Shown here: positions 53,874 through 56,435 of the stretch, in pieces
How the letters are laid out: every line of letters starts with the position of its first letter
How positions within the stretch are numbered: position 1 is the first letter of the stretch
From: Candidatus Peribacteraceae bacterium
GTDB taxonomy: Bacteria > Patescibacteriota > Gracilibacteria > Peribacterales > Peribacteraceae
Assembly (NCBI GenBank): GCA_028703835.1
Contig: JAQVMB010000008.1
Location: 1 to 58,759 of the forward strand
DNA length: 58,759 bases
Direction of reading: 5' to 3'
Notes under the pieces: generated by a model
What the model was told of the DNA's origin: nothing
The model's database searches: none
Seen by the model: only the letters and a program-made list of their open reading frames with translations
Made by a program: the position numbers and the translations under genes

Positions 53874-55325
53874 ATGTCAACACCATCCACGGTCATCGCC
53901 CCCGGTCAGGCGCATACCGTCACCATCGAGAAATTGACGTTTGGAGGCTCAGGATTGGCCCATATCGGCACGCTCCCCGTTTTCGTGCCGGACAGCATCC
54001 CGGGGCAGAACTTGGAGGTCGTCGTGACGAAAATGAAGGGGAACTATGCGGAGGCCAAGGTGAAGAAAGTCCTGCGGAAGGCGAAGGATGAGATCAACCC
54101 CCGCTGTCCCCATGCGCACGATTGCGGCGGCTGCGTGTGGCAGAATTTGTCCTACGACAAACAGATCGATTACAAGGAGGACATCGTCCGGGAGACGCTG
54201 GCGCACCTCACGCCCGTGGACGAGGCGGAACGCAAGAACCTTCCGGGGCGCGTGCTGAAAATCATCCCCAGCCCGCAGGTGTTCCACTACCGCAATAAGA
54301 TGGAGTTCTCCTTCGGCTACACCGCGATGCGGGCGGAGGAGCAGGGCGGCCGGCGCATCTATTTCGATGAAAATCCCACCATCGGTTTCCACAAGCCCGG
54401 CCAGTGGTCGACGGTGTTCCCCATCACCGAGTGCCATCTGTACGACGAGCAATTGCAGATGCTCCTCATGACGGTCCGCAGGTTCATGGAAGAAACGCGT
54501 TTGCCCGTGTACAACCCGAAGACCCAGAAGGGGATGCTGCGCACGCTCCTCCTGCGCCGCGGCGTCCACACCGGCGAGCAGATGATCTGTTTCCTCCTGC
54601 AGGCGCGGAAGAAGGAACTGGAGCCGCTCTTCCAGACGTTCATCCGCCACTTCAGCGGCCGCCCCGGTTTGGCGTCCCTGCTCGTGGTGGAGCACATGGG
54701 CCTGCATGACAAGCCCGATTTCCCCAAGATCCACACCCTCTTCGGCAAGCAGACCATCACGGAGCGCCTCTTCGACTTGCAGTTCGAGATCTCCCCATTC
54801 TCCTTCTTCCAGACGAACACGTTCGGCGCCGAGAAGCTGTACCGCGCCATCGCGGATGCGGCCGAGCTGACGATGCGCGACACGGTCCTGGACGCGTACT
54901 GCGGCATGGGGACAATCGGGCAGTACCTGGCGCGCTTCTGCCAGAAAGTGGTGGGGGTGGAGAGCCACCCGTCAGCCGTGGAGGACGCGCTGAAGAGCGC
55001 GGGAAAAAATCGCATCGGGAACATCAGTTTCTACAAGGGGAAGGCGGAGCAGGTGCTGCACCAGCAGCTGAAGGCGGGCGGGAAGTACGCGTTCAACGTC
55101 ATCGTGGTGGACCCGCCGCGGCCCGGCCTCCATCCCCGCGCCCTCGAAGCCGTCATCGACCACAAGGCGGACAAGGTGGTGTACGTCTCGTGCAATACGG
55201 CCACCTTCGCCCGCGACCTCGGCGCGTTCCTCAAGAAGGGCTACGAACTGCGGACCGTACAGCCCGTGGACCTTTTCCCGCACACGGCGCATATTGAGAC
55301 GGTCGCCCTCCTCCAAAGGAAATAA
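53874..55325 (+). CDS. rlmD: 23S rRNA (uracil-C5)-methyltransferase, RlmD/RumA type
   Basis: This S-adenosylmethionine- and iron-sulfur-dependent enzyme makes m5U in rRNA or tRNA. It has an N-terminal TRAM domain (HTVTIEKLTFGGSGLAHIG), cluster cysteines (CPHAHDCGGCVWQ), SPFSFFQTNTFGAEKLY, DAYCGMGTIGQYLA, DPPRPGLHPRAL and VSCNTATFARDL with the nucleophile Cys. The 483-residue protein starts at ATG 53874, 7 nt after TATTCT. Whether it is RlmD (U1939) or a related TrmA/RlmCD enzyme is uncertain. Its last eight codons have a fully synonymous copy 25 bp downstream. Confidence 0.93.
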   Translation: MSTPSTVIAPGQAHTVTIEKLTFGGSGLAHIGTLPVFVPDSIPGQNLEVVVTKMKGNYAEAKVKKVLRKAKDEINPRCPHAHDCGGCVWQNLSYDKQIDYKEDIVRETLAHLTPVDEAERKNLPGRVLKIIPSPQVFHYRNKMEFSFGYTAMRAEEQGGRRIYFDENPTIGFHKPGQWSTVFPITECHLYDEQLQMLLMTVRRFMEETRLPVYNPKTQKGMLRTLLLRRGVHTGEQMICFLLQARKKELEPLFQTFIRHFSGRPGLASLLVVEHMGLHDKPDFPKIHTLFGKQTITERLFDLQFEISPFSFFQTNTFGAEKLYRAIADAAELTMRDTVLDAYCGMGTIGQYLARFCQKVVGVESHPSAVEDALKSAGKNRIGNISFYKGKAEQVLHQQLKAGGKYAFNVIVVDPPRPGLHPRALEAVIDHKADKVVYVSCNTATFARDLGAFLKKGYELRTVQPVDLFPHTAHIETVALLQRK

Positions 55326-55350
55326 CCGGCGACCCTGAGCGAGTCGAAGG

Positions 55351-55374
55351 GTGGCGCTGTTGCAGAGGAAGTAG
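55351..55374 (+). pseudogene. Displaced copy of the rlmD 3' end
   Basis: The 24 nt read VALLQRK-stop, the same as the real end of rlmD, but almost every codon differs at the third base (GTG GCG CTG TTG CAG AGG AAG TAG against GTC GCC CTC CTC CAA AGG AAA TAA). Between the two lies CCCTGAGCGAGTCGAAGGG. Confidence 0.8.
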
Positions 55375-55413: not shown

Positions 55414-55776
55414 TTACGGAATTTGCATCAAGCGCGTGAGGAGATAGCTTAATCGCGCACAATGGTCGATGCATGCCGTTGCATCTTCTTCGCTTACCAG
55501 ACCCAGTTCCGCACTCAGATCGATAAAATTGTCCACCTCGACTGTGGAACCCCGGGCGCGCTGATAGTAGGCGTTACGGTGTGCTTGGGAACGCATGGCT
55601 GATCCTTCGGCAATATTTGCCATCACTGAACTTGCGGCGCGGCGCAGTTGTGATCTGAGATTGAATTGTGCATCTGGTGGAAATAGTTTTGTAATTTTGT
55701 AGACGTTCAATGTCAATTTCTTTGCTTCTTGCCATACGATGAGATTCCGAAAACCGGTGTCCATTTGTCGTTGCAT
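55414..55776 (-). CDS. Four-helix-bundle protein (rRNA IVS-type family)
   Basis: The 120-residue protein fits TIGR02436: FRNLIVWQEAKKLTLNVYKITKLFP, LRSQLRRAASSVMANIAEGSAMRS, YYQRARGSTVEVDNFIDLSAELGLVSEED, then a last helix. The family is known from 23S rRNA intervening sequences and scattered single genes; its function is unknown (related proteins form pentamers or bind nucleic acid). TACTAT is 6 nt before ATG 55776. It is flanked by inverted purine-rich repeats and lies just after the rlmD tail duplication, suggesting arrival with mobile DNA. Confidence 0.87.
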   Translation of the reverse strand: MQRQMDTGFRNLIVWQEAKKLTLNVYKITKLFPPDAQFNLRSQLRRAASSVMANIAEGSAMRSQAHRNAYYQRARGSTVEVDNFIDLSAELGLVSEEDATACIDHCARLSYLLTRLMQIP

Positions 55777-55801
55777 GTTGCGATAGTAATCCAACGGAAC
55801 T

Positions 55802-55845
55802 TTTCTGCCTTTCCTGCCCTTTCTTACCTTTCTGCCCTCCCCCAG
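55802..55845. repeat. TTTCTGCCTTTCCTGCCC repeats, right flank of the four-helix gene
   Basis: This is the inverted counterpart of 55376-55409. Related units lie at 13707-13733 and 27606-27655. Confidence 0.65.
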
Positions 55846-55894
55846 AAGGCTGCAAGGGTTACACAAAAAAGAGGTTCCACGCTACCATGGAACC

Positions 55895-56359
55895 ATGCAC
55901 CGCATCACTCTCCTCTGCGTCGGGAAGATCTCCAGCGACTGGATCGCCGAGGGATGCCGTGACTATTTGTCTCGCCTCAAGCGCGATGCGCTGGTGGATG
56001 TCCACGAGGTGGGCGCGAGTAAGGAGAAAGACGCCGAGCGGCAGAAGAAGGACGAATCGCTGCGGCTCCTCTCGGCCATGGCGAAGCATGAGGGCGATTC
56101 CATCGTGCTGGACGAGACGGGGGAGCGGATGACGTCCGCCCAGTTCGCGAAGTTCCTGCAGTCCGTCTTCGACGCGGGAACCCCGGCGGAGTTCGTCATC
56201 GGCGGCGCCTACGGGCTTACCGATGAGGTGCGGAGGGGCGCGAAGAAAACGATCCGCCTCTCGGACATGACCTTCACGCATGAGATGGCGCGCCTTGTGT
56301 TCCTCGAGCAGTTATACCGTTCTGTTCAGATAACAAAAGGGACTGGATACCATCATTGA
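55895..56359 (+). CDS. rlmH: 23S rRNA (pseudouridine1915-N3)-methyltransferase RlmH
   Basis: This SPOUT enzyme methylates pseudouridine 1915 in the A-site helix. The 154-residue protein starts MHRITLLCVGKISSDWIAEGCRDYLSRL and has SIVLDETGERMTSAQFAKFL, FVIGGAYGLTDEVRRGAK, LSDMTFTHEMARLVFLEQLYR and the end VQITKGTGYHH. The last ~16 codons (from 56312) are A/T-rich (TTA TAC CGT TCT GTT CAG ATA ACA AAA), unlike the rest of the gene. A GC-rich copy of the same end lies at 56385. The functional gene seems to carry an imported tail. Confidence 0.95.
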   Translation: MHRITLLCVGKISSDWIAEGCRDYLSRLKRDALVDVHEVGASKEKDAERQKKDESLRLLSAMAKHEGDSIVLDETGERMTSAQFAKFLQSVFDAGTPAEFVIGGAYGLTDEVRRGAKKTIRLSDMTFTHEMARLVFLEQLYRSVQITKGTGYHH

Positions 56360-56384
56360 ACTGTCACCCTGAGCCTGTCGAAGG

Positions 56385-56435
56385 GAGCTCTACCGCGCGG
56401 TGCAGATCGGGAAGGGGACGGGATACCACCACTGA
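56385..56435 (+). pseudogene. Displaced native-like copy of the rlmH 3' end
   Basis: The 17 codons read ELYRAVQIGKGTGYHH-stop, matching the RlmH end (Q)LYRSVQITKGTGYHH, but with the GC-rich codons usual for this genome. A CCCTGAGCCTGTCGAAGGG element separates it from the working stop codon. Confidence 0.85.

Follow-up and report, generated by a model that had tools for sequence, protein, structure and literature searches.

Recoded gene ends joined to REP-like palindromes at rlmD and rlmH of a Peribacteraceae genome: candidate miniature homing elements with a replacement terminus

The double-hairpin elements of fungal mitochondria are small mobile units of two hairpins, and we know of no replacement terminus in them. 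Mobile ORFs of fungal mitochondria (in Allomyces atp6 and in Glomus atp6, atp9, cox2 and nad3) bring an in-frame foreign tail and displace the native one; they carry a homing endonuclease gene, and the divergence of their tails indicates horizontal transfer (PMC3630166). REPs are short imperfect palindromes that occur in many copies, often near gene ends and sometimes inside genes, and Rickettsia palindromic elements, like other intragenic REPs, enter coding genes (PMC3733652). TnpAREP can choose its cleavage sites by their complementarity to the bases that precede the hairpin on its 5′ side (PMC8266576), and in IS608 a guide 5′ of the hairpin pairs with the cleavage and target sites, such that changing the guide redirects the target (PMC5934647). 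A search of the open literature found no report of REPs with replacement termini. Here we describe two inserts, in rlmD and rlmH of a Candidatus Peribacteraceae bacterium, that are probably miniature, ORF-less homing elements with a double hairpin, which carry a replacement for the gene terminus and follow an IS200/IS605-like logic. Both lie in the window, the whole stretch of 58,759 nucleotides that was analysed.

An earlier note on this DNA had pointed out that the end of rlmD is repeated in recoded form 25 nt downstream, and this holds exactly. The terminal codons at 55302–55325 (GTC GCC CTC CTC CAA AGG AAA TAA) encode VALLQRK-stop, as do those at 55351–55374 (GTG GCG CTG TTG CAG AGG AAG TAG); 7 of the 8 codons are changed, and every change is synonymous. 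The parts of the rlmD locus are:

53874–55325, plus strand: rlmD, 23S rRNA uracil-1939 methyltransferase (NCBIfam TIGR00479 rumA, 331.9 bits; sequence)
55303–55351, plus strand: inserted element of 49 bp (recoded tail, short spacer with 3′ arm, palindrome)
55303–55307, plus strand: 5′ arm of the element, with a predicted 7-bp match in which GGTCGCC (including two bases to the left) pairs with GGCGACC
55328–55334, plus strand: 3′ arm of the element, GGCGACC, abutting the palindrome and overlapping its first C bases
55333–55351, plus strand: REP-like palindrome CCCTGAGCGAGTCGAAGGG, its GGG end being the right junction
55352–55374, plus strand: displaced native rlmD tail, whose first codon takes in the palindrome's final G

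The boundaries of this element follow from the duplicate, which was aligned from the first base past GGG, and from empty sites in relatives; its insertion point lies 31 nt from the palindrome. Same-genus rlmD tails match the displaced copy at 18–19 of 21 positions and the attached copy at 14–15 of 21. By this comparison rlmD is a chimaera, with a native body up to 55302 and a foreign stretch made up of the last seven codons and the stop.

One kilobase away, rlmH has an identical layout with a duplicated tail of 16 codons. The functional tail LYRSVQITKGTGYHH-stop precedes the palindrome and the displaced LYRAVQIGKGTGYHH-stop, a copy absent from the earlier note, follows it. The attention that the note drew to the spacers of both genes was justified, each containing a palindrome (CCCTGAGCGAGTCGAAGGG at rlmD, CCCTGAGCCTGTCGAAGGG at rlmH). 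The parts of the rlmH locus are:

55895–56359, plus strand: rlmH (NCBIfam RlmH models; chimaera boundary)
56310–56385, plus strand: inserted element of 76 bp (recoded tail, spacer, palindrome)
56310–56359, plus strand: foreign rlmH tail (AGTTATACC...TGA) with AT-rich third positions (GC3 0.27 versus 0.90 in the gene body)
56367–56385, plus strand: REP-like palindrome CCCTGAGCCTGTCGAAGGG (sequence)
56386–56435, plus strand: displaced native rlmH tail, LYRAVQIGKGTGYHH-stop (sequence and chimaera boundary comparison)

Between rlmD and rlmH, on the minus strand at 55414–55866, there is also a gene for a 23S rRNA-intervening-sequence protein (PF05635), flanked by inverted GGCAGGAAAGG-like repeats and absent from this position in the relatives checked by eye.

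Whether a simulated background would often give equal tail matches had been raised beforehand, and none of 5,000 Markov-random regions reached the observed duplicate scores at either gene (36 at rlmD versus a random maximum of 29; 80 at rlmH versus 35). Three genomes of the same genus (G001–G003) have a single tail and no insert at both rlmD and rlmH, and these sites are therefore empty there. The second rlmD tail for which the note would have searched relatives was thus missing from these three; it was present in G030, of another genus, the only other displaced rlmD tail among the relatives' loci (VSLLQRK-stop, behind a different palindrome).

Both rlmH and rumA-type genes are recognised insertion sites of mobile elements, and the earlier note had linked the rlmD duplication to ICE integration. 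If these genes had served as attachment sites of an ICE or prophage, the ~830-bp insert with an NYN gene in rlmH of genome G038 would fit. The inserts described here, in contrast, are 49 and 76 bp and hold no gene, ICE, integrase or longer element between the tails, and the same palindrome and arrangement recur across the family at the ends of dozens of unrelated genes and of tRNAs; an ICE or prophage remnant is scarcely credible. The G038 locus (L159 4700–5740), with its NYN-domain ORF and a displaced tail of 34–36 amino acids, is a gene-bearing analogue without the palindrome. A second, broken rlmH 3′ fragment, ending GTGYHS-stop, lies elsewhere in the genome of the window (L160 4344–4520, minus strand; G000:C6:40343–40600).

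We compared the rlmH parts with the same genus and with genus g17 to identify the foreign copy. Left of the insertion point, rlmH agrees with its own genus at 69–75 of 102 nt and with g17 at 51–56 of 102. The attached tail shows the reverse affinity, agreeing with g17 (G047 and G019) at 39–40 of 50 nt versus 32–33 of 50 for its own genus, to which the displaced tail matches at 35–39 of 50. This chimaera boundary coincides with the insertion point. Across 288 genomes of the class, the attached tail matched rlmH of G047, in the other genus, better than any other non-self DNA (82% over 55 nt), and no near-identical donor of the rlmH element was found in that set. GC3 was 0.27 in the attached tail, 0.93 in the displaced tail and 0.90 in the gene body. 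On GC3, genus affinities and the G047 match, therefore, the incoming copy, foreign as judged by these comparisons, is the functional one upstream, and the native tail is the one left behind downstream; rlmH, like rlmD, is a chimaera, with a native body to 56309 and 16 foreign last codons. The suggestion in the earlier note that one tail came from another genome is borne out by the rlmH boundary, and the insertion together with its foreign tail is well supported by the sequence affinities. A foreign tail with a sharp boundary is also what transformation followed by illegitimate joining would leave, if DNA of another species ending at a REP hairpin recombined on one side through homology to the gene end and was joined on the other by its hairpin end, with no dedicated element; the family-wide regularities described below bear on this alternative.

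To place the two inserts in a wider context, we surveyed 259 distinct palindromes in genomes belonging to the bacterium's own Peregrinibacteria family, calling a duplicate when the sequence from the base after GGG repeated the sequence preceding the palindrome with a DNA score of at least 9. Anchored duplicates were found at 62 of the 259 palindromes versus 6 of 777 swapped pairs. The palindrome reached up to 30 copies per genome (zero for a reversed-pattern control); only ~17% of single palindromes had a detectable gene-end copy, and composite double palindromes rarely did (1 of 47). Among 69 viral-contig stretches with the palindrome, there were no convincing gene-end copies at the element's spacing. 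The opposite (CCC) side stayed near control in an earlier set of 170 palindromes, apart from mirrored cases, and the unit therefore has polarity. In 34 of 59 positives, 54–74 nt separated the insertion point from the palindrome. Besides tRNA genes, hit at both their 5′ and 3′ ends, the targets included gene 3′ ends and gene 5′ ends, among them rlmD, rlmH, a zinc-ribbon gene, genes ending HAKGVKNLDI-stop and DQEIEDRIGIVR-stop, a glyceraldehyde-3-phosphate-dehydrogenase-like tail and the starts of rsmI and tatD (names partly from reading peptides).

Direct repeats at ~19 nt were kept apart, being mostly palindromes inserted in short heptamer-like repeats. Palindromes that follow CCTGC or CCTGT (L038, L277, L241, L244, L257 and others) often sit in such direct repeats (TTCCGAA, GTTGCTG, CTGCCCG) at a fixed 19-nt spacing. 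The palindrome also occurs in frame inside proteins, where it adds peptides such as CHPELVEG: in dinB (L002), in tsaB of G002 and G001 (L184 and L202) and in a purF-like gene of G011 (L180), all named from reading peptides.

Scoring synonymous against nonsynonymous changes, as the earlier note had proposed for the rlmD tails, gave 124 synonymous and 66 nonsynonymous differences over 328 codons in 29 pooled coding events. With synonymous sites saturated (pS 0.77) and pN at 0.14, the pooled pN/pS of 0.18 agrees with the claim that both tails were once functional coding tails, pN and pN/pS being biased downwards by a choice of positives made partly on protein similarity. Pooled GC3 was 0.51 for attached tails, 0.67 for displaced tails and 0.70 for the gene body, and across these events the displaced tails retained the codon bias of the gene body. 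A purely local event, in which a palindrome inserts with a ~20–60-bp target duplication and the copies then accumulate differences where they lie, with coding selection acting on the attached one, would account for a few recent-looking, near-identical pairs (L367, with ~50 nt identical, and L422). It is nevertheless improbable as a general explanation: displaced copies retain intact reading frames at synonymous saturation, it is the displaced and not the attached copy that matches same-genus relatives, and even the copies of L287, with 26 of 28 nt matching, lose their similarity at the gene boundary. For the diverged cases, a long target duplication followed by drift was rejected on the intact displaced frames and the chimaera boundary; at rlmH, the affinity of the attached tail to another genus shows the local reading to be wrong.

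The same points have been occupied repeatedly, in different genera. Elements occupy one point in the 5′ region of tRNA-Leu in G000, G040, G005 and G041 (twice), one at the start of rsmI in G060, G001 and G031, one in the HAKGVKNLDI tail in G014 and G005, one in the WxxVxWEEV tail in G026 and G041, and one in rlmD in G000 and, with another palindrome, in G030; at the tatD start of G066, two units stand in tandem. Matches to the zinc-ribbon arm pattern, nine in all with one identical pair, came from seven genomes and five genera, all within the family, and the reversed control of the pattern had none. All zinc-ribbon elements encode ESC, facing displaced native tails of E[K/N/E]C; the wobble base of the serine codon covaries with the 3′ arm (CG, UA, GC), and the covariation score was matched by 1 of 500 shuffles.

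Bases abutting the palindrome paired with the insertion point at a mean score of 7.61, versus 5.71 for swapped pairs (sd 0.20, maximum 6.50, 1,000 permutations). Pairing of at least 3 bp from position −2 with the native right flank was present in 44% of the 54–74-nt class versus 4% of swaps; it is weak in the rlmD and rlmH elements and significant for gene-end copies as a group. Outside the gene-end cases, the hairpin signal was only modestly above control. Directly 5′ of the palindrome, R-Y was the only strong constraint, with variable bases further out. We interpret the unit as a pair of adjacent hairpins, the palindrome itself and a predicted large one whose loop contains the gene end, because of the arm pairing, the right-flank pairing and the zinc-ribbon covariation. 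The rlmD and rlmH elements, folded singly, were no more stable than shuffles, and the two-hairpin reading therefore rests on comparison rather than on energy.

Sequence comparison thus establishes that a terminus of foreign origin keeps the gene whole, with the native terminus displaced intact behind GGG, and likewise establishes a precise right junction, a fixed polarity and a usual distance of 54–74 nt; it further establishes, for the elements as a group, that the two arms are predicted to pair mutually and, in many copies, also with the target, and that individual sites have been hit more than once across genera. Random recombination would not be expected to give a near-constant 54–74 nt, a single polarity and a precise GGG junction, nor arm pairing, nor same-site recurrence in several genera. 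Transformation with illegitimate joining, despite the sharp rlmH boundary and the existence of palindrome-rich genomes without a Y1 transposase, is consequently unlikely. An RNA-guided process, in which TnpB/IscB-type homing acts as a natural cleave-and-rescue system, would take the sequence right after the palindrome as its guide and let the recoded tail escape cutting. The native target does lie exactly 3′ of the hairpin, as for an omegaRNA guide, and the attached copy is recoded. Left flanks vary, however, with no constant motif or fixed short target left of the insertion point to serve as TAM, and the rlmD and rlmH loci show no scaffold RNA besides the hairpins and no Rfam family, leaving this alternative very unlikely.

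The mechanism that we favour is a homing element moving, in the IS200/IS605 manner, as single-stranded DNA. Each element would consist, in order, of a replacement terminus (its first bases forming the 5′ arm), a short spacer, the 3′ arm and the REP-like palindrome. The 3′ arm would act as a copy-specific guide pairing with the left and right cleavage sites, and a single-stranded unit of gene end, arm and palindrome from another species would enter where its arm pairs, at a single point inside the gene end. The palindrome would set the right end, and the carried gene end would restore the target; because the cargo restores the gene, insertion could be nearly neutral and spread between species at the site possible.

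The first candidate enzyme would be a putative RAYT/Y1 transposase. The genome encodes two RAYTs above the NCBIfam cut-off, neither of them flanked by the element's palindrome, and no PF01797 match was found in the REP-rich genomes G015, G046, G031, G040 and G030. Palindrome-rich genomes without a Y1 match, and RAYTs without flanking palindromes, are the main weakness of the single-strand model. A Y1 domain in frames of ~1,000 amino acids was rejected as the mobiliser, since these frames turned out to be leucyl-tRNA synthetase with the domain inserted in it. In at least five genera this Y1/RAYT domain lies in frame, immediately ahead of the enzyme's editing domain (L522 in G005, at approximately residues 320–440; L517 in G013; L519 in G059; L523 in G023; L524 in G038), and similar long frames with a Y1 match occur in G033, G043, G048 and G064. 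This could be a case of a transposase domesticated inside an enzyme that is itself essential.

Set against the described systems, these elements share with REP, BIME and REPIN sequences and their RAYTs an imperfect palindrome of ~20–40 bp, multiple copies and the presence of two RAYTs in the genome. They differ in having fewer copies per genome than classic REPs (up to 30), copy-specific arms, no palindrome-flanked RAYT and, in the surveyed copies, no invariant GTAG or CGTC tag at the palindrome foot; they also bring a foreign gene terminus that displaces the native one. With IS200/IS605 they share an oriented insertion, and they have a candidate guide 5′ of the hairpin whose pairing is significant for gene-end copies as a group and weak in the rlmD and rlmH elements; they have no internal transposase gene or fixed left target, their cargo is a host gene end, and the putative guide varies between copies and tends to correspond to the target of the copy that carries it. 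By the features tested, the elements are neither typical REPs nor IS200/IS605 members; they work like both. The in-frame foreign tail, with the native tail displaced behind the insert, is common to fungal mobile ORFs, whereas the present elements are bacterial, span 49–93 bp, have no ORF or endonuclease and also occupy tRNA genes and gene 5′ ends. Rickettsia palindromic elements add a peptide, whereas here the terminus is replaced (in-frame copies, as in dinB and tsaB, occur here too). The likeness to fungal double-hairpin elements, a small two-hairpin unit, is one of name and general description. That the family holds gene-less bacterial homing elements of ~50–90 nt, each with its own DNA guide for one gene or tRNA terminus and a recoded copy of that terminus, and spreading between genera at fixed sites by natural insert-and-rescue, is a tentative proposal to which we give slightly less than an even chance.

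If true, these would be among the smallest known mobile DNAs, entering essential genes harmlessly by means of a foreign spare part. They would offer a natural record of single-strand insertion with a target apparently set by base pairing, which to our knowledge has otherwise been seen only where IS608 was altered by design. They would also account for patchwork gene ends in Patescibacteria, and each displaced native terminus with its attached foreign counterpart would let gene flow among uncultured bacterial genera be traced directly and counted.
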